The notes under the pieces are model-generated. The model saw nothing but the letters and a program-made list of their open reading frames with translations. It was not told the DNA's origin and made no database searches. From Massilia sp. WG5 (GTDB lineage Bacteria > Pseudomonadota > Gammaproteobacteria > Burkholderiales > Burkholderiaceae_D): 14,623 nucleotides of DNA. Below, piece after piece: positions 1,804 to 14,623 of the stretch (its first letter is position 1; every line of letters starts with the position of its first letter). A program made the translations under genes and the position numbers. The stretch is taken from assembly GCF_001412595.2 (NCBI RefSeq), contig NZ_CP012642.1, positions 1-14,623 on the forward strand, written 5' to 3'.

Positions 1804-3115
1804 GTGATAAGCAAAGAAGAGAACGAGCTGCTGTGCCGGGTGGAAGGCGATGCGCGATGGGGCAGCTGATGCGCCGCCAGGCAACCGGTATGCCTGATCG
1901 AAGAAGTGAGTGAGGCGGACGGTACGCCGGTCAAGGCGCGCATGTTCGGCCAGGACCTGGTCGTGTTCCGCGATACCCAGGGCCGGGTCGGCGTCATGGA
2001 CGAATATTGCCCACACCGCGGCGCCTCACTGGTACTCGGGCGCAACGAGGGCAACGGCCTGCGCTGCCTCTATCACGGCTGGGAAGATGGACGTGGAAGG
2101 CAACGTCGTCGAGATGGCATCGGAGCCGGCCTCCAGCTGCATGGCCGCCAAAGTCAAGCATCGCGCCTATCCGGTCAGAGAATGGGGCGGCTGCGTCTGG
2201 GCCTACCTCGGTCCTGCCGAGACGATGCCCGAGTTCACGCCACCGCCCTGGGCGCCGACCGCCGAAGTCCGGGTCAGCATCGCCAAGGCCATCATTCCCT
2301 GCAACTGGGCGCAGATCCTGGAGGGCGCGATCGACTCGGCGCACAGTTCGAGCCTGCATTCGTCGGACATGGTGCCGGCCCGGGTCCAGGGCGCCGAAGC
2401 CAACGACAAGGCCTGGCTGCGGCCTTCCACCGACAAGGCGCCACGGCTGCAAGTGCAGCGCACCTCCTATGGCTTCCGCTATGCGGCGCTGCGGCGCCCG
2501 ATCAGCAATGCGGCGACGCACGATTATGTGCGCTCGACGGTGTTCGTCGCACCGGCCACCGCGCTGATCCCGCCCAACAATCTGTACAACGTGGCCAACA
2601 TCAATGCCGGTGGACGACACCAACACGGCGTTCTATTTCATCGCCTGGGGCCACCCGGCCAAGACCCCGGAGACCGAAACGTGGCGCAAGTTCCTCGGCC
2701 AGCGCCTGGGCGTCGACCTCGACCAGCACTACAAGCCGTTGCGTAACGTCCACAACATGTTCTGGCAGGACCGGCAAGCATGAAAGCAGGGAACTTCACC
2801 GGGATCACGGGCTTCCCGAACCAGGATATTGCGATGTGGGTGACGATGAGCCCGATAGCGAACCGCAGTGCGGACCGCCTCGGCGCCAGCGACCTCGCCG
2901 TCGTCGAGTTCCGGCGCCAGATGATCGAGGCGGTGCGCGCATTCCAGGACGGGCAGCCTGCGATCGGTTGCGCCGACAGCGCGGTCGGGCCCGGGGTCTG
3001 TGCCTACCAGGCGATCATCCCCAAGAGCGTCGACTGGCGCTCGTACGAAACGAGCTATGTGTGGGACGAGCCGCAGGCGGCAGCGCTGGATGGCAGCTAC
3101 CAGACGACGGCTTGA
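1804..3115 (+). CDS. ophA2: Phthalate 4,5-dioxygenase, oxygenase component (frameshifted in this read)
   Basis: Rieske non-haem iron oxygenase that adds O2 across C4-C5 of phthalate to give the cis-4,5-dihydrodiol, fed electrons by OphA1. The rebuilt protein is about 437 residues, the family's usual length. The Rieske cluster ligands are in CPH (C70, H72) and CLYH (C89, H92). The mononuclear iron motif EGAIDSAHSSSLH lies further on. The start is GTG with a strong ribosome binding site. Indels break the frame near 1855 and 1879 (both corrected by the right copy, which reads APMGQLMRRHW), near 2083 (extra G after YHGW), 2606 (two bases lost) and 2777. It is the first gene of the oph operon, 29 bp before ophC. 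PobA-type phenoxybenzoate dioxygenases are close relatives, but the decarboxylase, reductase and dehydrogenase neighbours favour phthalate. Confidence 0.85.
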
Positions 3116-3144: not shown

Positions 3145-4131
3145 TTGTCCAAGCTTCAACTTTCAATCGCGATGGGAGACTATGACCGGACCCGTGGGCT
3201 GCTCGACGGCAGCGTGCAGATCGATGGTCGATCCGGTCTGCATGACGCTTTCGCCGGAAGAGATTTTCTTCCGGGCTTTCCGCAATGCCGAGTTTGACAT
3301 CAGCGAACTGTCCTTTTCCAGCTACCTGGTCAAGGCCTCGAAGGGCGTGAGCCCGTACGTGGCGATACCGGTATTCCTGTCGCGTGCGTTCCGCCATACC
3401 TCGATCTATGTGCGCACCGATCGCATCCGCAAGCCCGAAGACCTGAAAGGCTGCCGCATTGGGGTACCGAATATCAGCTGACCGCCAACGTGTGGGCGCG
3501 CTCGATCCTGCAGGACGATTACGGCGTGCGGCCGGAGGATGTGACCTGGGTGCGCGGCGGCATCGACGAGCCGGGCCGTCCCGAAAAAATCAAGCTTGCG
3601 CTGCCACCTGAGGTGCGGATGGAGAGTGCGCCGGAAGGCGACACGATCTCTGCAATGCTCGACCGCGGGGATATCGACGCGTTCATCGCGCCGCGCCCGC
3701 CTGGCGGCGCGGCCGCTAATAATCCCGATGTCGGCTGGCTGTTTGCCGATCCGACCGCCACCGCCAAGGACTACTACAAGCGCACCGGGATTTTTCCGAT
3801 CATGCACGTGGTCGGCATCCGCAACGAACTGGCGGCACAGCATCCATGGTTGCCGGGCGCCGTGCTGAAGGCGTTCGAGCAGGCCAAGTCGGCCGCGCTC
3901 GCCAGGCTGGGCGACACCTCGGCCACCAAGGTGACGCTGCCGTTCGTGGAAGAGCAGTTGAAGGCGGCGCGCGAGTCTATGGGACAGGATTACTGGTCGT
4001 ACGGCGTGGCTAACAACCGGCCGACCCTGGAGGCATTCGTGCGCCACCATCATTCCCAGGGGTTGTCGGCGCGCCGGATGTCGGTCAACGAAATCTTCCA
4101 CCCCGGCAGCTACGAGTCCTTCAAGATATGA
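3145..4131 (+). CDS. ophC: 4,5-dihydroxyphthalate decarboxylase
   Basis: Removes one carboxyl group from 4,5-dihydroxyphthalate to give protocatechuate, the last step of the phthalate upper pathway. The rebuilt protein is about 329 residues, as in Pht5/OphC. It shows the family's typical runs GDYDRTRGLLDGSVQIDG at the N-terminus, SRAFRHTSIYVRTDR, a GVPEYQLTANVWAR stretch, TGIFPIMHVVGIR and ATKVTLPFVEEQL, ending YESFKI. The fold is related to periplasmic substrate-binding proteins, so automatic tools often mislabel it as an ABC transporter binding protein; no signal peptide is seen. The start is TTG at 3145 with AGGAG at 3133-3137. Two breaks are seen: two bases lost near 3224, and a G lost near 3469 within GVPEYQ. 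Its stop overlaps the next gene's start (ATGA at 4128). Confidence 0.85.
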
Positions 4132-4975
4132 TCGATGCACAGGCAACGGTTTCCATGACAGACCTGCTCAGTTCGTTCGGCAGCAGCAACCTGGCCGGAC
4201 TTGCCATCGTGGCCGGCGTCGCCGCCGCGTTCGTGGCGGGCGGCATCGTCAAGGGCATCCTCGGCGTGGGGCTGCCGCTGGTCATGGTGCCGGCTCTGTC
4301 ACTGGTGATGCCGACCCCGCAGGCCATCAGCTTGCTGGCGATACCGGTGCTCGCGGCCAACCTGTGGCAGGCGATCGATAGCGGTGTCGCAATCGGCAGG
4401 CTGCGCCGCTTTTTCCCGCTGCTGGTGGCGCTGGTAGGAGCGACCCTGGTGACGGTCCCGCTGGCGCTGGCCATGCCCTCGGGCATGCTGACCTTGATGG
4501 TGGCGCTGGCGGTGTTGCTGGCGGCACTGTCGATGGCGTTCCGGCCGCAATTCGATATTCCAGCGCGCCGTCAACGGCTGGCTGGCGTCGCCGTCGGGGC
4601 ATTGGCGGGCGTGGTCGGTGGCGTTTCTTCGCTCACCGGACCGGTCGTGATCGCCTATCTGTCGGCGCTGAAACTCGAGCGCGAGGATTTCATCGGCTGC
4701 ATCAGCGTGATTTACCTGTTCAGCGCCATCCCGCTGTACGCGTCGCTGGCGGCCCATGGCCGGCTGGGTGCGAGTGAACTGGCGGTGTCGCTGGTCGGCC
4801 TGCTCCCGATGGCGTGCGGACTGTTGATCGGCAAATGGTTGCGCGGTTTTTTCAGCGAGTTGTGGTTTCGGAGAACCATCCTTGCTTTCCTGGCTGTCAG
4901 CGCAGCCGCCTTGCTGTTGCAGGCGACTGAGCTGACCCATGCGCCCCCCAGCGCGAATTTCAAATTCTGGAATAA

Positions 4976-4979
<4 letters not shown>
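4128..4979 (+). CDS. TauE/SafE (TSUP) family membrane permease
   Basis: An intact 283-residue, very hydrophobic protein with about eight membrane segments. The glycine-rich first repeat (GGIVKGILGVGLPLVMVPAL, about residues 37-56) and the similar second repeat (LAGVVGGVSSLTGPVVIAYL, about 163-182) are the duplicated TSUP signature. The family moves anionic organic or sulfur compounds across the inner membrane. Inside a phthalate operon the likely cargo is phthalate or a related aromatic acid; direction is unknown. It overlaps ophC and ophE by ATGA junctions, so translation is probably coupled. In Burkholderia cepacia DBO1 the comparable slot is held by the MFS permease OphD, so this looks like a non-homologous replacement. 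Cargo assignment is inference; family assignment is firm. Confidence 0.8.
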
Positions 4980-5829
<850 letters not shown>

Positions 5830-5833
<4 letters not shown>

Positions 5834-6832
5834 GCCTGATCGATGCCCACAAGGCCGCTCCCCAAGCACCTATGGAAGGCCCGGCAACCCCTGATGGAAT
5901 GACACCGCTGCGTATCGCGCACGTGCGCGACGTGGCGGAGGGTATCCGCAGCTTCGAGCTGGTCCACCCGATGGCGCGCAGCTGCCGGTCTTTACGCCCG
6001 TTCGCACATCAAGATCGGGTGCGAACGGCGCCATCCGCAAGTACTCGCTGTGCAACGACCCGGCCGAGCGCGGCCGCTACGTCATCGCCGTCAAGCGCGA
6101 CGAGCGCGGGCAGGGCGGCTCGATCAGCCTGGTCGACGACGCCAGGGTCGGGACACCTTGCTGGCCTCGGTGCCCGAGAACGCATTTCCGTCGTGGAAAC
6201 CGCCCCATCCTATATTTTCATCGCCGGCGGGATCGGCATCACGCCGATCATGTCGATGATCGCCTCCATGGGCGAGCTGCCTGCCGCGCCCTGGAAACTG
6301 TACTATTTCACGCGCTCGCCCGAAACCCACCGCGTTCCTGGAGGAACTGAACGCACCGGAACTGCGCGGACGTGTCCATGTGCACCACGACCATGGCGAC
6401 CGGCGCGCGTCGTTCGACCTGTGGCCGTGCTGGAACGGTCGAGCGGGGCCCATGTGTACTGCTGCGGCCCGCAGGGCTGATGGACGCGGTGCGCGACATG
6501 TCCGGCCATTGGCCGCATTCGAACATTCACTTCGAAAGCTTCGCCGACGGCAGCCGGCCACGGCCCGACGACACGCCGTTCGTGGTGCAGCTGGCAAAAT
6601 CCGGCCGCAGCCTCGAGGTACCGGTCGGCAAATCGATCCTCGACGTGCTACGCGAAAGTGGCTGCGACGTGGCGTCGTCATGCGAAAGCGGCACCTGCGG
6701 CTCGTGCCGCACCGGCTTGCTGGCGGGCGAAGCGGATCATCGCGACATGGTGTTGATGCCGAGGAAATGGAGTCGCAGATCATGGTGTGCGTGTCGCGCG
6801 CCAGGTCGGCCGAACTGGTGCTGGACCTGTGA
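5830..6832 (+). CDS. ophA1: Phthalate dioxygenase reductase (FMN, NADH and plant-type 2Fe-2S)
   Basis: Passes electrons from NADH through FMN and a C-terminal [2Fe-2S] centre to OphA2. Domains in order: FMN-binding barrel with [13 protein letters not shown] domain with [19 protein letters not shown] and YCCGPQGLMDAV; and C-terminal ferredoxin with [12 protein letters not shown] plus the last ligand in IMVCVSRA. The rebuilt length is about 335 residues, near the 320 or so of the family, with a slightly longer N-terminus. ATG at 5830 overlaps the ophE stop. The frame is broken about nine times, for example near 5974, 6000, 6150, 6190, 6330 (extra C), 6424, 6477 and 6763. Vanillate demethylase reductase VanB is the nearest alternative; the neighbours decide for OphA1. 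Confidence 0.85.
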
Positions 6833-6834
6833 TC

Positions 6835-8028
6835 ATGGGACAACGCCGACTCCGCCTGGAGTGGCCGGCCTTGGCCGTGCCTTCACGCTGATGTTGCCGA
6901 CCCTGGGCGCCGATCCCCGCATCGAGCTGGTCGCGGCGTGCGACCCGCGCGCGGCGGCACGCGCGCAGTTCGCGCGCGACTTCTCGGCGCCGGTCTACGA
7001 AAGCGTGGAACAGCTCGCTGCCGACCCGTCGCTAGACGCGATCTATGTCGCAAGCCCGCACCAGTTCCATGCTGAAGCACACCAGTATTGCCGCTTCGCA
7101 TGGGAAACATGTACTGGTCGAAAAGCCGATGGCGTTGAGCATGGCCGAGTGCGGACGACATGATCGAGGCATGCCGGGCGGCGGCGTGCACCTGATCGTC
7201 GGTCATTGCCACAGTTTCGACTCGCCCTATCTGGCGGCGCGCGCGATCATCGACAGCGGCGAACTCGGCAAAGTCAAGATGATTCAGGCGCTCAATTACA
7301 CCGACTTTCTGTACCGCCCGCGGCGTCCGGAAGAGCTCGATACCGATGCCGGCGGTGGCGTCGTGTTCAGCCAGGCAGCGCACCAGGTGGACGTGGTGCG
7401 TCTGCTGGCAGGCAGCCGCGCCACGCACGTTCGCGCCACCCATGGGGCCTGGATCCGGCGCGGCCTACCGAGGGCGCCTACGCGGCGATGTTGTGGTTCG
7501 ACGATGGTGTGTTCGCCTCGCTGGTTTACAGCGGATTCGGCCATTTCGATTCGGACGAGTGTGCGGCTGGACGGGAGAAATGGGCGCGCCCAAGGAGTCG
7601 ACGAGTATGGCGGCGCGGCGCCGTCTAGCGGCCATCGAGTCGCCGCAGGAAGAGGCCCGGCTGAAGGCGGCCGCTACCTATGGCGGCCCGGCCTATCGGG
7701 CGCCGGCCAAGCCCGGCGCGGACGCCGCCCCGTTCCAGCACCAGCATTTCGGGCCGATTGTCGTTGCCTGCGAGCGCGGGGATATGCGGCCGATGCCCGA
7801 CGCCGTGGTGGTGTACGGCGACGCCGTGCGCGAGCGACGCGCGCTGGCGCCTCCGGCCGTGCCGCGCTTCGAAGTCATCGACGAGCTGTACGCGGCGGTA
7901 GTGCACGGAACGGCACCGCTCCACAGTGGGCTTTGGGCCAAGGCAACGCTGGAAATCTGCCTGCGCTGCTGGAGTCGGACCGCGAAAAGCGCGACGTGAA
8001 GCTCGAGCACCAGGTGGGACGAGGATAA
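6835..8028 (+). CDS. ophB: cis-4,5-dihydrodiol phthalate dehydrogenase (Gfo/Idh/MocA family)
   Basis: Oxidises the phthalate cis-4,5-dihydrodiol to 4,5-dihydroxyphthalate with NAD(P). After repair it is about 398 residues. Near the N-terminus is the Rossmann loop GVAGLGRAF, then [20 protein letters not shown], the family's EKP motif in [13 protein letters not shown], and [16 protein letters not shown]. This matches the Pht4/OphB type, which belongs to the Gfo/Idh/MocA family rather than the short-chain dehydrogenases used for most arene dihydrodiols. ATG at 6835 follows the ophA1 stop by two bases. Breaks lie near 6862, 7072, 7153, 7175, 7450, 7569, 7597, 7613 and 7964. It is the last gene before the insertion sequence, whose end is 15 bp after the TAA. 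Confidence 0.8.
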
Positions 8029-8043
8029 AGCACGCGGTACAAC

Positions 8044-8061
8044 GGGGCATTGTCAAGTTGC
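8044..8061 (+). repeat. IS6-family terminal inverted repeat, end distal to the transposase start (IRR)
   Basis: GGGGCATTGTCAAGTTGC matches the complement of 8869-8886 in 17 of 18 positions. Read outward on the minus strand it contains TTGACA, an outward -35 box pointing antisense into ophB. Confidence 0.9.
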
Positions 8062-8130
8062 TGAGCCGACGAGACGAGTTTCGGAATCCGGAGCGAAATG
8101 GCCGCGCGCTCGGATAACAAATGTCCCAGG

Positions 8131-8836
8131 TTATGCGTTCTTCGCTACATCGGTGACCTCATTCCAGAGAGAAAACGCTTGAGTACGCACGTGCCGGTAC
8201 TGCTGCGCCGACAGGCGGTTGCGCTGGCATCGGAAGACGTTGTTGATCGGCCCATGCGCGGATAGAAAACGCTGCGCGTGCCTCGGTGACTTGTAGCGGC
8301 GCATCTGCCGTTCTCGCTGGCGCGTCGGTTGGTGCGATAGCTCGGCCCGGTTGTTCAAACCCTTGTGCTGGCGATGCTCTACGCCCGGCATGATCTGAGC
8401 CTTAGCGGCCGCATAACTCTTGAGCTTGTCAGTAATCAGAACCCGCGGCACGTAGCGCAAGCCCTTGAGAAGCTTGCGAAAGAACCGCTTGGCCGCCTGC
8501 CGGTCACGCCTGCTCTGCACGAGGACATCCAGGACATGGCCGTCCTGGTCAACTGCACGCCAGAGGTAATGATGTTTTCCCTTGATCGTCAGCACGACCT
8601 CGTCGAGGTGCCATTTGTCGCCCCGTCGTGGCTGACGTCGGCGCAGCTCAGCAGCGTATTGCTGGCCGAACCGCAGAGTCCATTGGCGAATCGTCTCGTA
8701 AGTCACGACGATACCCGGCTTGCCATCAATTCCTCGATGTCGCGAAAGCTCAGCGAGAACCGGAAGTAGAGCCACACCACATGGCTGATGATCTCCCGAG
8801 GTAGCGGAAACCGCGGTAAAGTTGAGAACCTGTCAT
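8131..8836 (-). CDS. IS6-family DDE transposase
   Basis: The rebuilt protein of about 235 residues starts at the ATG whose complement is 8834-8836 (MTGSQLYRGFRYPREIISHV...). A helix-turn-helix region (LSFRDIEELMASRG...VTYETIRQW) is followed by the catalytic core: D in DKWHLDEVVL, D in VLITDKLKSY and E in NNRAELSHQPTRQRE, followed by MRRYKS. This spacing is that of IS6 transposases. Two lost bases break the N-terminal frame, near 8800 (within RYPREI) and near 8729 (within ASRGIVV); from 8775 to the stop at 8131 a frame is open. It catalyses replicative cointegrate formation, and in the IS26 branch also conservative joining at a pre-existing copy. Its reading direction is opposite to the oph and liv genes. 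Confidence 0.9.
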
Positions 8837-8868
8837 CTCATCATTTTATCGAGGCGCGGCCGGCTGTG

Positions 8869-8886
8869 GCAAATTGACAATGCCCC
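8869..8886 (-). repeat. IS6-family terminal inverted repeat, transposase-proximal end (IRL)
   Basis: This is the complement of GGGGCATTGTCAATTTGC. It abuts the livG coding sequence directly: the final C of the repeat already serves as the first base of the livG histidine codon at 8886-8888. Confidence 0.9.
8874..8879 (+). promoter_or_regulatory. Outward-facing -35 box in the IS end, pointing at livG'
   Basis: A perfect TTGACA lies inside the inverted repeat and reads out of the IS toward livG', livF and the downstream catabolic genes. IS6-family ends are known to form hybrid promoters this way. No good -10 box is visible 16-18 bases downstream (the position falls on CGGCCC), so promoter activity here is doubtful; transcription could instead begin within the IS. 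Confidence 0.4.
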
Positions 8887-9545
8887 ATGCGGTCATCGGC
8901 CCCAACGGCGCCGGCAAGACGACCTTCATCAGCCAGCTGATCGGTGAACTGCACCCCGACGAAGGGACGATCCTGTTCGACGGTGCCGATATCACCCGCT
9001 TGCCGGTGCACCGGCGCGCGCTGGCAGGAATGGCCCGTTCGTACCAGATCACGTCGATCCTGCCGGACCTGACGGTGCTGCAGAACGTCATGCTCGCCGT
9101 TCAGGCACGACGCGGACACAGCTTCCGTTTCTGGGCCCGGGCGGCGCTCGACCAGGACCTGATCGCGCCGGCGCGTGCGGCGCTCGAGCTGGTCGGTCTG
9201 GGCGGAGAACTCGACACACTCGCGCGCAACCTGGCCATGGCGCCTGCCGCCAGCTGGAACTGGCCGTGGTGCTGGCGATGAAACCCAAGATGCTGCTGCT
9301 CGACGAGCCGATGGCAGGCATGAGCCCGCAGGAATCGGCGGAAATGACGCAGCTGCTGCTCAAACTGAAGGGCTCGGTCAGCATTGTCCTGATCGAGCAC
9401 GATCTCAATTCGGTGTTCACCCTGGCCGACCGCATCACCGTGCTGGTATATGGCCGGGCGATCTCCACCGGATCGCTCGACCAGGTGCGGCCGACCCGAA
9501 GTGCAGGCGGCCTATCTGGGCGAGGAGGAGACGCTCGATGCGTGA
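8880..9545 (+). pseudogene. livG: 5'-truncated LivG-type ABC transporter ATPase
   Basis: ATPase of a branched-chain amino acid (HAAT) type ABC importer, a family that also takes up aromatic acids. Reading starts at HAVIGPNGAGKTT, so Walker A is kept. The first 30 or so residues, including the strand and aromatic A-loop that stack on adenine, are gone, replaced by the IS end. An in-frame TTG (8874) or ATG (8880) in the IS repeat could restart translation, but no ribosome binding site is seen. Downstream are the Q-loop region (YQITSILPDLTVLQNV), RQLELAVVLA, Walker B (MLLLDEPMAGMSP) and the H-loop (IEHD). Lost bases near 9235, 9490 and 9498 break the frame; these look like read errors, unlike the truncation. 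The stop overlaps the livF start by eight bases. Confidence 0.85.
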
Positions 9546-10247
9546 AATCTTACTTGAAGCAAGCGGTATCGAAGCCTGCTACGGCTCCAGCCAGGTTTTG
9601 TTTGGGGCCGGCATCGACATCCGGGCCGGGAGTTCGTCACCATCCTCGGGCGCAACGGCATGGCAAGTCCACCATGGTCAAGACCATCATGGGCATGCTC
9701 AAGACCAAAAGCGGGGTCATCCGCCTGGCCGGCAGGACATGACCGGCAAGCCCGACCACCACGTGGCGCAGGCCGGGATCGGGCTGGTGCCCGAGGGCGC
9801 GGCATTTTTCCCAACCTGAGTGTGCGTGAAAACCTGGTAGCGACGGCGGCCCAGCGCTTCCCGATGGGCGCGCCCTGGACCCTGGAGCGCATCTACACGC
9901 TGTTCCCGCGGCTGAAGGAACGCGAAACCAACCTCGGCTGCAACCTGTCCGGCGGCGAGCAAACAGATGCTGGCGATCGGGCGTGCCCTGATGACCAATC
10001 CCAGACTGATGATCCTCGACGAAGCGACCGAAGGCCTGGCGCCGCTGATCCGCGCCGAGATCTGGGAATGCTTGAAGAACTTGAAGCAGACCGGAATTGC
10101 GCTGTTGTCATCGATAAAAACATTGCGCCATTACTGCGGCTGGCCGATCGCCATTTCATTTTCGAAAAAGGGAAAACCGTATGGAGCGGCACCTCGGATG
10201 AACTGCGGCGCAACCGGCAGTTGCTGGAAGAGTATGTCGGCCTCTGA
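9538..10247 (+). CDS. livF: LivF-type ABC transporter ATPase
   Basis: Second ATPase of the HAAT importer pair, about 237 residues after repair. It shows GRNGMGKST (Walker A), GIGLVPEGRGIFPNLSVREN, LSGGEQQMLAIGRAL (signature) and LMILDEATEGLAP (Walker B). The H-loop region reads VIDKN where many LivF proteins have VEQN. It ends LLEEYVGL. Breaks occur near 9630, 9660, 9735, 9802, 9964 (extra A) and 10108. The start ATG sits inside the livG stop region (ATGCGTGA). The substrate-binding protein and the two membrane subunits are absent, lying presumably upstream of livG in the source genome. Alone, this ATPase has no transporter to drive within the unit. Confidence 0.85.
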
Positions 10248-10277: not shown

Positions 10278-11268
10278 GTGAAAATCACCGTCAACGACAT
10301 CGCCGGCATCGTCGGCATCCTGCCGACGCCCGCCACCCCGAACGCGGGGCGCTGGGATGCCGAAAACACCGTCAACCTGGCCGAGACCGAGAAAATGGTG
10401 CGCATCGTACTCGATGCACGGGTTGATGTGCTCATGACCACCGGCACCTTCGGCGAATGCGCAACCCTGACCTGGAACGAGCTGCGCGACTTCGTCGACT
10501 GCGTCGTTCGCACGGCGCGCGGCGCGGTACCCGTGTTCGCCGGCGTCACCACCCTCAATACCCGCGACACGATCCAGCGTGGTCGCGAACTGGTCGGGCT
10601 GGGCGCCGATGGCCTGTTCGTCGGCCGCCCGATGTGGCTGGCAATGGACGATGCGGCCATCCTGCGCTTCTATCGCGATATCGCCGAGGCGCTGCCGGGC
10701 GTGCCGCTGGTGGTGTACGACAACCCATCCGCTTTCAAGGGCAAGATTTCGCCGGCCTTGTACCAGGCGCTGGCCGACATTCCGGAAGTGGTGGCTGCCA
10801 AGCATGTCGGCGGTCCTTCGCTGTTGTCCGACCTGCAGGCGGTCGGCAGCAAGATCCGCATCCTGCCACTGGAAACCGACTGGTATGCCGCAGCCCAGGC
10901 CCACCCGGATCTGGCGCTGGCCTGCTGGTCGGGCGGGGTGGCCTGTGCCCGGCGCCGATTGTCGCGCTGGCCGACGCGATCAGGGCCAGGGACTGGCCGC
11001 GCGCGCAGGCGCTCACCGAAAAGCTGCGCTGGGCAATTTCACCAATGATCCCGGACGGCGACCTGGCCAAATTCATGGACTACAGCATCCAGCTCGGGCA
11101 CCAGCAGTTTGCGGCCGCTGGCCTGATCGATCCCGGCCCGAGCCGTCCGCCATACCTGGAAGCCCCGAATAACTATATTGCCGGCGCGCGCGAGTGCGGC
11201 CAGCGCTGGGCGATTCTGCAGCGCGAGTTCGGCGCCGCGCCGGCCGCCCCCCAGGCCGCCAACGCTGA
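10278..11268 (+). CDS. NahE/PhdJ-type hydratase-aldolase (2'-carboxybenzalpyruvate or hydroxybenzylidenepyruvate)
   Basis: Class I aldolase of the DapA superfamily that adds water to, and cleaves pyruvate from, an arylidene-pyruvate. Motifs: LPTPATP (15-21), GTFGECATLTW (56-66), VVYDNPSAF with the active-site Tyr147, VVAAKHVGG with the Schiff-base Lys175, and SGGVACGPAP. GTFGECATLTW and the TVNLAET region match NahE-type enzymes rather than true lysine-biosynthesis DapA. GTG at 10278 has AAGGGA seven bases upstream. A G is lost near 10946. No stop is read in the resulting frame before the next gene. One more lost base, most simply in the C6 run at 11247-11252, would end it at the TGA 11266-11268 with 330 residues, the NahE length. 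With phthalate genes nearby, 2'-carboxybenzalpyruvate is the likely substrate. Confidence 0.8.
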
Positions 11269-11317: not shown

Positions 11318-12355
11318 ATGACTACTACTACAAAAACCTTGGCCCAATTCGACACCGAGCTGGCCGCCATGTCGCTGCGCGGGCAGTGGGTGTACGACGC
11401 CATGCTCGAACGCCTGATTGGCGGCCCCAATTCGGCCGGGAAGCCGCACCTGTGGCGGTGGGATGCGGTCAGCCCGAAACTGATGGAGATGCTCGACGTG
11501 ATGTCCGAAAGCTTCACGGCGCGCCGCAATGTGTCCTTCATCAACCCTGCGCCGGAAGTCGGCAGCACCACCCAGACCATCCTGATGGGCATGCAGGTGA
11601 CCAAACCGGGCGAAACGGCCTGGGCGCACCGCCATCCTATCTCGGCGCTGCGCTTCGTGATCGAGGGCGACGAGAAGCTGTACACGGTGGTCAACGGCGA
11701 ACCGCTGGTAATGGAAACCAATGACCTGGTGCTGACGCCGACCTGGACCTGGCACGACCATCACAACGAAAGCGATAAGGTCGGCATCTGGCTCGACGTC
11801 CTCGATGTGCCGCTGGTCGCCAAGCTGGGACAGATGGCCTACGAGCCGCTGGGAGAAGTCACGCAGGAGGTGATTCGTCCAGAGCAGTTCCCGAGCGCGC
11901 GCGCCAACCCGATCCGCCCGCAATGGGAACAGCCGGCGCGCCAGGTCGTTCCGTACCGCTATGCCTGGCGCGACGTCGAGCAGCAGCTGCAACGCTTCGC
12001 CGCCGTCGCCGGCTGTCCCCACGACGGCATCGCCCTCGAGTATGCCAACCCGGCCACGGGTGGCCCGACCCTGCCGACCCTGCGCTGCGCGGTGCAAAGC
12101 CTGCCGCCAGGCTTTGCCGGCAAACCGAAGCGCAAGACGTCGAGCGCGGTGTTTTATGTGGTCGAAGGCGAGGGCACCACCATGGTCGGTGACATCGAGC
12201 TCAAATGGGGACCGCGCGACGTGTTCTCGATTCCGAGCTGGGCCTGGTATGAACATCGCAACAACTCGTCGGGTTCGCGCGCGGTACTGTTTTCGGTCAC
12301 GGACGCGCCGGTGCTCGAGGCGGTTGGCCTGTACCGCGAGGAAGCCGGCAAATAG
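11318..12355 (+). CDS. Gentisate / 1-hydroxy-2-naphthoate 1,2-dioxygenase family (bicupin ring-cleavage enzyme)
   Basis: Intact, 345 residues. Fe(II) extradiol-type enzyme with two cupin domains. The N-terminal cupin holds the metal ligands: H104 and H106 in AWAHRHPISALRF, and a further His in TWTWHDHHNES (H146 or H148). The second cupin (SSAVFYVVEGEGTTMVGD, SIPSWAWYEHRN) lacks the HxH pair. Gentisate, salicylate and 1-hydroxy-2-naphthoate dioxygenases share this build. Genes for the gentisate follow-up steps (maleylpyruvate isomerase, fumarylpyruvate hydrolase) are absent. A hydratase-aldolase able to use the naphthoate cleavage product lies immediately upstream, so 1-hydroxy-2-naphthoate (PhdI-like) is favoured by context. 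GAGGAG at 11303-11308 supports this ATG. Family is firm; substrate is inferred. Confidence 0.85.
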   Translation: MTTTTKTLAQFDTELAAMSLRGQWVYDAMLERLIGGPNSAGKPHLWRWDAVSPKLMEMLDVMSESFTARRNVSFINPAPEVGSTTQTILMGMQVTKPGETAWAHRHPISALRFVIEGDEKLYTVVNGEPLVMETNDLVLTPTWTWHDHHNESDKVGIWLDVLDVPLVAKLGQMAYEPLGEVTQEVIRPEQFPSARANPIRPQWEQPARQVVPYRYAWRDVEQQLQRFAAVAGCPHDGIALEYANPATGGPTLPTLRCAVQSLPPGFAGKPKRKTSSAVFYVVEGEGTTMVGDIELKWGPRDVFSIPSWAWYEHRNNSSGSRAVLFSVTDAPVLEAVGLYREEAGK

Positions 12356-12398: not shown

Positions 12399-12871
12399 AT
12401 GTTTGATTTGGAGTTAAGAGCAAGGATTGCGGACTTGTATGCCGCTATGCCGAATGCATCTGCGACGGAGACCTCGCGCAGTGGCCGGAATTTTTCCGGG
12501 ACGACTGCGTGTACCGGATCGTGCCGCGGACCAACCACGAGCGCGGTCTGCGGATCGGTCCGATGTTCGCCGAGAGCAAGGGCGCACTGGTGGACCGCAT
12601 CACGGCGATCAAGGAAACCCAGGTGCATGCGGCGCGCGCGCTGAACCACAACGTTTCGGGCATCCGCATCGTGTCGGCCGACGGCGCGCTGATCAACAGC
12701 CGTTCGATGATCACGGTGTACCAGACCCTGGTCGACGGCACCACGCGCCTGCTGCTGACGGCGCGCACCTTCGACAAGCTCGACAGCACGGGCGGCGACC
12801 TCAAGATCGTCGAGCGCCTGGTGGTGTTCGACTCCGAATTGCTTGCAGGGGCGTTGGTGTACCCGGTGTAA
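12399..12871 (+). CDS. NagH-like Rieske oxygenase small (beta) subunit
   Basis: Structural subunit of a two-subunit aromatic ring hydroxylase, NTF2-like fold, about 157 residues after repair (NagH is of similar length). It shows the family's early LAQWPEFFRDDCVYRIVPR run and later SRSMITVYQTL, TARTFDKLD and IVERLVVFDSE. ATG at 12399 has GGAG at 12389-12392. One lost base near 12445 (AAYAECICDG region) splits the frame; the rest is open to the TAA at 12869-12871. It lies 43 bp after the cupin dioxygenase and 75 bp before the large subunit, so the pair is almost certainly cotranscribed. Its 3' part is seen again at 1-131. Confidence 0.85.
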
Positions 12872-12899
12872 GCCGGCAACCAGCCAGTGCCCGAACGCC

Positions 12900-12916
12900 T
12901 GCCGGCGCGACCGGCA
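12900..12916 (+). other. Intercistronic hairpin, right copy
   Basis: Same TGCCGG/CCGGCA stem as 160-176, between the small and large oxygenase subunits. Confidence 0.4.
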
Positions 12917-12945
12917 ATGACAAACCGAATCAATGAGTAGCCGCG

Positions 12946-14211
12946 ATGGACATGCATGCAACTGATACTGAACTGAACCCACACAAGAAATGGCCGCGGG
13001 AAGATTGCTCGCGCGTGCCGTTGTGGGTCTATACGGACAAGGACAATTACCGCAGCGAACTCGAGCGCATTTTCTACGGGCCGTTCTGGCACTTTGTCGG
13101 TATCGATACCGAAGTGCCGAACACGGGCGATTTCAAGCGCGCGACGATCGGCGAACGGACGGTCTTGATGACGCGTACCGAGACTGGTGAGATCAGCGTG
13201 CTGCAGAATAATTGCGCGCACCGTGGCGTGGAACTGTGCCAGGCGAAATTTGGCCACCAGAAGGAAATCATGTGTCCGTACCATCAATGGACTTATGACC
13301 TGAAGGGGGAACTGATGGGCGTGCCTTTCCGGCGCGGCATCAAGGGCAAGGGCGGCTTCCCGGCCGACTTCGACATGAAGGAGCACGGCCTGCGGGTGCT
13401 GAAAGTAGAAAACATCAACGGTGCCGTGTTCGCTTCGTTCGACCACAGCGTCCCGCCGATGGAAGAGTATCTTGGCGACGAAAATTATTTCTATCTCAAG
13501 CGTATCTTCAATGGCCGCAAGGTCAAGGTGCTTGGCTATCAGCGCCAACGCATTAAGGGCGATTGGAAACTGTACATGGAGAACATCAAGGATCCCTACC
13601 ATGCGTCCTTGCTGCACGTATTCCTGATCAGCTTCGGCCTGTACCGGATTGACCAGAAGGGCGTCACCATCACCGACGAGCGCACCCGTTCGCACAACGT
13701 GTTCGCATCGGTCCGGAATACCGGCGAAGCCACCGGCACGATGGAAATGAAATCCTATCGTCCGGACTACACGCTCAACGACATGCGACTGGTCAAGGCG
13801 GCGCCGGAGTACAACGACGAAATCACGATCCAGATCCAGACCATCTTTCCTGACCTGGTCTTGCAACAACAGGACAACAGCCTGCAGCTGCGCTATGTCA
13901 TCCCTATGGGGCCGAACGAGTTCGAGCTGCTGTGGACCTACTTCGGCTACGAGGATGACGACGAGGAAACCACTATGCGCCGCTTACGCCAGGCCAACCT
14001 GACCGGTCCGTCCGGTTTCGTGTCGGTTGACGATACCGAGGTGCTGGAGTACTCCTGCGCCGGCATCCAGGCCAACCCGGGCAACACCGCGGTGCTGGAA
14101 CTGGGCGGCAGGGGGGCGGCGCCGCCGGAGGACGGCAACATGGTGACCGAGGGGCCGATCCGCGGTTTCTATGAGTACTACCGCACCATCATGTACGGGG
14201 ACCAGGACTGA
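12946..14211 (+). CDS. NagG-like Rieske oxygenase large (alpha) subunit, intact copy
   Basis: Catalytic subunit, 421 residues. Rieske ligands C90 and H92 (CAHRG) and C110 and H113 (CPYHQW); mononuclear iron motif ENIKDPYHASLLH with H219 and H224, bridging D216, and a candidate third ligand in SVDDTEVLE (D362/D363). The framing runs GDFKRATIGER, GVPFRRGIKG and YQRQRIKGDWKLYMENIKDPYH resemble salicylate 5-hydroxylase NagG and anthranilate dioxygenase AndAc, which act on aromatic carboxylates. The ferredoxin and reductase partners are not in the window; OphA1 might stand in. Substrate is unknown: salicylate (giving gentisate) by homology, 2-naphthoate or another naphthoate by context. A broken copy is at 207-1472. 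Confidence 0.9.
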   Translation: MDMHATDTELNPHKKWPREDCSRVPLWVYTDKDNYRSELERIFYGPFWHFVGIDTEVPNTGDFKRATIGERTVLMTRTETGEISVLQNNCAHRGVELCQAKFGHQKEIMCPYHQWTYDLKGELMGVPFRRGIKGKGGFPADFDMKEHGLRVLKVENINGAVFASFDHSVPPMEEYLGDENYFYLKRIFNGRKVKVLGYQRQRIKGDWKLYMENIKDPYHASLLHVFLISFGLYRIDQKGVTITDERTRSHNVFASVRNTGEATGTMEMKSYRPDYTLNDMRLVKAAPEYNDEITIQIQTIFPDLVLQQQDNSLQLRYVIPMGPNEFELLWTYFGYEDDDEETTMRRLRQANLTGPSGFVSVDDTEVLEYSCAGIQANPGNTAVLELGGRGAAPPEDGNMVTEGPIRGFYEYYRTIMYGDQD

Positions 14212-14218
14212 AGGCTGC

Positions 14219-14253
14219 CTGCGCCGGAAGCGGCTGATCCGGCGCAGCATTTT
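14219..14253 (+). terminator. Hairpin terminator, right copy
   Basis: Identical to 1480-1514: a 10-bp GC-rich stem and CATTTT, seven bases after the large-subunit stop. Confidence 0.7.
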
Positions 14254-14409
14254 CCATGGACATAGGTGTGACGCTGGCCGCTTGGCCAGCGGCGTCCCCG
14301 CACGCCGTTCGGACGCCATGTCCGCGGCTGAGGACAGGCCGTCGAGCCGCCGGATTGCGATGTAGCGCACCTGTGGTTCCAATTACGAATTTCACGTGTA
14401 TCGAACGTA

Positions 14410-14444
14410 AACCGGTAGACACCGGTTGGCGCGGCATCTATACT
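14410..14444 (+). promoter_or_regulatory. oph promoter and operator-like repeat, right copy
   Basis: TAGACA at 14416-14421 and TATACT at 14439-14444 with a 17-base spacer, and the AACCGGT-N4-ACCGGTT inverted repeat at 14410-14427, unchanged from the left copy. Agreement between the two reads of this region supports the base calls here. Confidence 0.65.
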
Positions 14445-14542
14445 TTTGCTTAGGGGTCTAAGTTTTTTTATTGTGCGGTAAAAGTAATCCGGCCGCTGCA
14501 TGCAGGAGCCAGGCAGCGGTTGAACAACTAGGGAGGTCTGCG

Positions 14543-14623
14543 GTGATAAGCAAAGAAGAGAACGAGCTGCTGTGCCGGGTGGAAGGCGATGCGCCGATGG
14601 GGCAGCTGATGCGCCGCCACTGG
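14543..14623 (+). CDS. ophA2: ophA2, 5' end only (right copy, cut by the contig end)
   Basis: The first 27 codons of the phthalate dioxygenase oxygenase gene, from GTG at 14543 after AGGGAGGT, ending ...GQLMRRHW. This copy has no frame break and supplies the C and the CT missing near 1855 and 1879 of the full-length gene, which shows that at least those two breaks are not real. It continues past the window only if the unit is tandem or circular. Confidence 0.9.
   Translation, partial: MISKEENELLCRVEGDAPMGQLMRRHW

Follow-up and report, generated by a model that had tools for sequence, protein, structure and literature searches.

Probable tandem duplication of an IS6-family translocatable unit with aromatic-acid cargo on a Massilia plasmid

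An IS6-family element and its aromatic-acid cargo

The window analyzed here is an entire contig of 14,623 bp (hereafter C3), one of three in the 6,216,151 bp genome of Massilia sp. WG5 (estimated completeness 100). Its single insertion sequence (IS) lies on the reverse strand at positions 8046–8884, with ends set from the outer copies of the same IS on C2, a 187,727 bp plasmid contig of the same genome. The IS is 841 bp long on C2 and 839 bp in the window, and both this length and its ends (GGCATTGTCAA...TTGACAATGCC) agree with the ~800 bp and short inverted repeats of the IS6 family. The transposase gene (8131–8836, reverse strand) is frameshifted in the window by two 1-base deletions, and its C2 version is an intact frame of 235 amino acids, which scored 220.2 bits against the NCBIfam IS6 model NF033587 (cut-off 125) and 129.4 bits (1.3e-37) against PF13610. 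Thus, the IS on C2 encodes an intact predicted IS6-family transposase, and the initial annotation had correctly recognized one IS6-family element at this place. Of the extent it gave (8044–8886), the GG at 8044–8045 and the CC at 8885–8886 proved to be flanking sequence. Its observation that no target duplication surrounds the IS also held: no 8-bp duplication was found around the window copy (TACAACGG / CCATGCGG), around the whole array on C2 described below (CGCCGTGC / ATCTGAAG), or beside each of the three IS copies on C2. Since IS6-family elements need not have flanking repeats, as stated in the available part of PMC7986276, this does not bar membership in the family.

Next, we evaluated the gene content of the DNA beside the IS, reading the main open reading frames (ORFs) from the C2 copy and searching them against Pfam, NCBIfam, and PDB. 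The main non-IS ORFs matched transport or catabolic families, with two exceptions, a beta-like ORF that matched nothing and a substrate-binding protein scoring below cut-off; all lie on the forward strand. The first, livG′ (8874–9545; PF00005, PF12399), encodes an ABC transporter ATPase with its 5′ end cut by the IS, and starts just before the Walker A motif. It is followed by a livF-like ABC ATPase gene (9538–10247; PF00005), a gene for a PhdJ-like hydratase-aldolase (10278–11268; PDB 6dan, PhdJ, E 6.3e-122), and one for a putative bicupin ring-cleavage dioxygenase of the gentisate/5-aminosalicylate type (11318–12355; NF049978 at 292 bits and TIGR02272 at 256 bits, both under their cut-offs; PDB 2d40, 1.2e-56). 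The beta-like ORF (12454–12965) is a probable oxygenase beta subunit, judged by its position and by eye, as no Pfam, NCBIfam, or PDB match was obtained. The adjoining gene encodes a Rieske oxygenase alpha subunit of the salicylate-5-hydroxylase/anthranilate type (PDB 7c8z, E 3.5e-133; NF041684 at 424 bits, cut-off 750), intact at 12946–14211 and frameshifted where the window reads it a second time, at 207–1472.

The second part of the cargo resembles a phthalate cluster, and the oph names used for it here are those we presume to apply. An ophA2-like gene for a phthalate dioxygenase oxygenase (1804–3115; LigXa_C, 5.9e-170) is frameshifted on C3 and intact on C2; its best structural match, PDB 7fjl (E 7.5e-244), is named only “Rieske domain protein,” and the weaker match 7fhr is named phthalate 4,5-dioxygenase. 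Downstream lie genes for a PhnD/SsuA-type substrate-binding protein (3151–4131; TIGR01728 below cut-off, with a PLSDB relative bearing that annotation), a TauE/SafE membrane exporter (4128–4979; PF01925), a nadC-like quinolinate phosphoribosyltransferase (4976–5833; TIGR00078 at 276 bits, cut-off 198.4; PDB 3gnn), and an ophA1-like reductase (5830–6832; flavin reductase/ferredoxin models below cut-off, with a PLSDB relative named PDR/VanB family oxidoreductase). The last gene, ophB-like, has an approximate start and ends 17 bp before the IS (6832–8028); it encodes a Gfo/Idh-type dehydrogenase, by context a cis-dihydrodiol phthalate dehydrogenase, with TIGR04380 and related models below cut-off. 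A nadC gene of this sort also belongs to phthalate clusters elsewhere, perhaps because phthalate resembles quinolinate; in the literature searched, phthalate was joined with nicotinate-nucleotide pyrophosphorylase in one paper and with quinolinate phosphoribosyltransferase in none.

From this gene set, we infer a route leading from a hydroxynaphthoate-type acid through phthalate. The cargo had been described as a near-complete catabolic module, and the aromatic-acid genes are indeed present. The module is nonetheless partial: no 2-carboxybenzaldehyde dehydrogenase, 4,5-dihydroxyphthalate decarboxylase, or enzyme opening the ring of the final product was seen among the scanned ORFs. As had also been noted before, the main ORFs, read from the C2 copy, included no replication, partition, or mobilization gene (Pfam, NCBIfam), and a PADLOC scan of four proteins of the unit returned no match.

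To place the IS in a wider context, we searched plasmid records and related genomes. The IS was found in 4 of 72,556 plasmid records, all at ≥99% (99.2–99.3%) DNA identity: Sphingobium YBL2 plasmids 4 and 5, Sphingomonas sp. SH plasmid pSH, and Variovorax RA8 plasmid 2. A single transposase accession is common to the four, and the pSH transposase is identical to that of C2 at 235/235 amino acids. On pSH, two direct IS copies bracket a Rieske-oxygenase unit, which we take to be the phenylurea-herbicide genes pdmAB. Over pSH 36029–44943, four IS copies stand close together with different genes between them, three of them with annotated transposase genes in the same orientation, and this region looks like another translocatable-unit array formed by the same IS. 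YBL2 plasmid 4 carries two full copies, corresponding to the pSH pair, in opposite orientation, so the IS is not always found as direct copies; on RA8 plasmid 2, genes for maleylacetate reductase and dienelactone hydrolase are found close to one copy. Relatives closer to the host were rare and distant. Within the genus, 6 of 62 genomes matched the IS at 1e-3, including Massilia sp. WG5 itself, the other matches being one 790-base relative at 80%, one 300-base piece at 80%, and three of 28–49 bases; within the family, 10 of 392 sampled genomes matched at 1e-100, the nine others at 77–83%. Given these distant relatives and the near-identical copies on sphingomonad and Variovorax plasmids, the IS probably came from plasmids of other groups.

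Tandem units on the plasmid contig

Genome-wide, the IS occurs once on C3 and three times on C2, where the copies are 12.78 kb apart. Specifically, C2:608–27008 has the structure IS-unit-IS-unit-IS, in which the three IS copies are direct and identical, as are both units, and C2 accordingly matches itself at 100% over 13,621 bp in direct orientation (IS-unit-IS against IS-unit-IS). The repeated unit consists of one 841-bp IS plus 11,939 bp of aromatic-acid genes, with a repeat length of 12,780 bp on C2 and 12,740 bp in the window. The initial annotation had suggested looking for replicons in which this IS is flanked by ophB or livG′, and C2, with its two tandem units and three direct IS copies, is such a replicon. 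It had further proposed counting these joints against host joints: by exact match, the ophB-IS joint occurs twice on C2 and once on C3, the IS-livG′ joint likewise twice and once, and the outer-left-IS and IS-outer-right joints once each on C2 and not on C3. No exact match to the ophB-IS joint was found in viral contigs. An IS standing between ophB and livG′ is the mark of a tandem or circular unit, and one such IS was found on C2 (the middle copy) and one on C3.

These features are those of a translocatable unit, i.e., bounds formed by direct IS copies and one IS per unit with internal joints that are constant between C2 and C3, and the two units stand in tandem in the assembly. The proposal that one IS6-family IS and the DNA to one side of it make up a translocatable unit is thus supported by tandem units in the same genome. 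We consider it very probable that the window represents part of an IS6-family translocatable unit (a pseudo-compound transposon) with aromatic-acid genes, doubled in tandem and situated on C2; the doubled unit on the plasmid is well supported by the assembly. Against this explanation, array copy number and doubling both rest on the assembly, target duplication is missing, a circle would predict an identical C3, and the two full IS copies of YBL2 plasmid 4 are in opposite orientation. The copy number is ≥2 in the assembly and may vary between cells.

A competing reading is that a single composite transposon was doubled by the assembler on C2 and closed on C3. Assembler duplication would yield identical units and IS copies, as observed on C2; however, an IS between ophB and livG′ is impossible in a lone IS-unit-IS structure, yet it is present in both C2 and C3, and C3 crosses the ophB-IS-livG′ joint and continues 1.88 kb into its own start. 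The initial annotation had named a related case, a composite transposon present once with its two IS copies collapsed, as one that would overturn its proposal. This does not fit the assembly either, in which C2 holds the doubled unit together with both unique outer flanks. We therefore disfavor a one-copy composite transposon on account of these joints and regard it as quite improbable.

The replicon bearing the doubled unit can be described in some detail. The last and first bases of C2 match positions 28,465 and 28,467 of plasmid NZ_CP103372.1 from Massilia sp. H6, both within a single thiol-disulfide isomerase gene, so that by synteny C2 closes to a circle within ~1 base; the reading frame across the closing join is not straight through. 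We picked 190 ORFs on C2 and scanned 40 of those outside the unit with Pfam, which yielded ParA-type and ParB-type genes, a TrwC-type relaxase, a TrwB-type coupling protein, and the type IV secretion components TraC and TraN; no replication initiator was recognized among these 40. C2 is thus, by its gene content, a plasmid with predicted conjugation genes. At 32–53 kb, it carries genes for a Rieske alpha/beta pair, a reductase, a short-chain dehydrogenase, a glutathione transferase, two DHDPS-type aldolases, two aldehyde dehydrogenases, and a BphC/glyoxalase-type dioxygenase, a set that we take to be an upper polycyclic aromatic hydrocarbon (PAH) pathway, and on these predictions it is a ~188-kb PAH-type plasmid of a Massilia-like bacterium. 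Besides the PhdJ-like gene of the unit, the plasmid has DHDPS-type aldolase genes at C2:38635–39639 and 52285–53283, the former with 67% DNA identity to that PhdJ-like gene. C2:56379–58751 encodes a 790-aa protein with AEP-TOTE primase and helicase domains, unexpected for a catabolic plasmid, and C2:54789–54929 is what remains of a related IS (141 bp at 83% identity).

Elsewhere on the same plasmid, C2:63476–70202 holds a resident copy of the oph part, without the IS, at 95.6% identity and with 295 mismatches. In 300-base windows, identity between resident cluster and unit was 92–98% from ophA2 to mid-TauE, 98.7–99.7% from late TauE through most of ophA1, and 84–94% in ophB, and both look like mosaics. 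At C2:70199–70238, a 40-nt stretch resembling beta (87.5%) runs directly into the 3′ end of alpha, a scar that likely reflects a deletion in the resident cluster; the latter is without most of beta-alpha, and the unit has an intact alpha and a probable beta subunit gene. We examined and rejected a recent origin of the unit by copying from the resident cluster, given the 95.6% identity and the missing beta-alpha sequence. A chromosomal home was likewise rejected, the best match on the chromosomal contig (C1) being 363 bits at 71% among the 40 of 391 candidates that were scored; no near-identical liv donor locus on C1 was among these 40 either, and no PLSDB record covered 80% of the window. With a diverged phthalate copy elsewhere on C2, the unit was probably imported.

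We propose that the IS would first have captured the segment, cutting livG, and that the unit would then have reached the plasmid in the form of a translocatable unit or a cointegrate. The second copy may have arisen when the transposase targeted an insertion to the side of an IS, or else through RecA exchange involving direct copies, and the likely benefit of doubling would be the dosage of phthalate-pathway steps.

Nature of the small contig

C3 closes on itself with one IS: its termini overlap, positions 1–1879 matching 12741–14619 at 1875 of 1881 positions. It is also wholly contained in the C2 array, being colinear over its full length with C2:5316–19979 at 99.58% identity (2 mismatches and 55 gap openings by BLAST), and it has no joint that is missing from C2. 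Aligned with MAFFT, which placed some gaps unlike BLAST, C3 differs from C2 by 48 single-base deletions, 7 insertions, and 15 mismatched columns, and 42 of the 48 deletions fall in runs of ≥2, compared to 44% of positions in such runs, a profile resembling that of long-read contigs before polishing. The differences are concentrated in window positions 5001–10000 (8, 16, 12, 2, and 11 alignment columns per kb) and absent from 13 kb on, a pattern as if read support varied along C3. Being colinear throughout, with no new joint and with differences that are mostly single-base indels, C3 is most simply explained as an array leftover, i.e., it most likely represents an unpolished remnant from reads of the C2 array. 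More generally, a small contig that looks “circular” in a long-read genome can be such a leftover and not a plasmid.

The initial annotation had read C3 as an excised circle, which is unsupported as stated, C3 being a subsequence of the C2 array plus indels and thus adding no evidence of its own for a circle. A true circle of the translocatable unit, released from the array through RecA exchange or transposase action and coexisting with it, would be compatible with the C2 array and would differ from the leftover reading solely on the nature of C3; the two predict an identical contig, so C3 does not prove a circle. Self-closure with one IS and no replicon gene seen would fit a circle, for which a replicon-free circle alongside a tandem array on its parent plasmid provides a precedent (PMC11102541, from the part available). 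Against it, every joint of C3 is already in the C2 array, and the indel load of C3 suggests few reads rather than an abundant circle. On balance, we regard the circle as possible, if unlikely.

A further argument for excision comes from the IS tips. The GG adjoining the left end of the IS (8044–8045) and the CC at its right end extend both internal tips to GGGGC, and are missing at both outer ends of the array on C2. Of the 12 places matched by the IS on the four other plasmids, nine are full copies, and none of the 18 ends of these partly non-independent copies had an adjacent GG (partial copies being outside this count); among distant relatives, it was found at 1 of 40 ends (L032) in 20 rows, several of which were spurious pairings. 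By a rough estimate, chance alone would place GG at both ends in about 1 of 100 cases. For Tn4352B, circle excision has been tied to an extra GG next to one internal tip (available part of PMC7986276). However, our comparison was made post hoc, and one distant-relative end also has GG, so we treat the GG tips as only a lead.

Two further readings can be weighed from the same evidence. That C3 is an independent small plasmid with an unrecognized replicon would be favored by its closure alone, but its main ORFs are those of an IS, transport, and catabolism, bar the one beta-like ORF, and the same sequence lies inside C2; with no replicon gene seen, we rejected this reading, the probability of which we consider close to nil. 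Conversely, the most far-reaching reading would have the catabolic translocatable unit amplified in nature and present as a free replicon-less circle as well. Array expansion and excision driven by the IS, with pollutants as the selective pressure, would then set the dosage of the phthalate pathway, and the GG tips at both internal ends of the IS would make the unit prone to excision. We consider this combined scenario doubtful, slightly more so than the circle by itself.

Relation to known systems

Tandem amplification of translocatable units has so far mainly been described, in the sources as available, for antibiotic resistance under drug selection. If the doubled unit on C2 is real, a pollutant-degradation unit would amplify alike, which would offer a means of testing whether the evolution of pathway dosage in degraders follows the same route. 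The unit moreover sits on a plasmid with conjugation genes, and its IS is common to alpha- and betaproteobacterial plasmids. A tandem catabolic translocatable unit seems to be unreported under those words in the literature searched, which included few subscription journals; tandem arrays linked to IS1071 gave no literature match either, a weak result since the combined query was strict.

The nearest case is P2/cP2 of K. pneumoniae (PMC11102541, from the part available), in which an IS26 translocatable unit is amplified in tandem on plasmid P1 and replicon-free circles occur. Both systems combine a replicon-free, circular-looking element with tandem copies on a resident plasmid, but the K. pneumoniae unit has resistance cargo and IS26, and its circles were shown by long reads and gel profiles, whereas C3 is known from assembly only. 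The IS26 pseudo-compound transposons Tn4352 and Tn4352B (PMC7986276, likewise in part) share direct IS copies around cargo and an extra GG beside an internal tip, at one internal tip in Tn4352B compared to both in the Massilia unit.

For catabolic cargo, the IS6100-bounded car, fdr, and ant units of Sphingomonas XLDN2-5 (PMC2848856) are similar in having an IS6-family element around aromatic catabolic genes and truncated genes beside the IS; unlike here, the IS is IS6100, the ant copies are head-to-head, and no doubled unit is described in the available portion of that report. Plasmid pAME76 carries metaldehyde genes between two direct, identical copies of the IS6-family element ISOur1 (PMC9676059), and pIBU218 carries ipf (ibuprofen) regions between IS6100 copies, the regions being lost probably by recombination between these copies (PMC9195938, PMC11892951); what is accessible of these reports describes no tandem array for either plasmid. 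The four other plasmids bearing the present IS also have it near dioxygenase or hydrolase genes, with other cargo and no doubled unit in their annotation. Taken together, and as far as the available parts of these sources go, catabolic units between IS6-family copies are already known, and the tandem arrangement of catabolic cargo is the unusual part of the Massilia unit.
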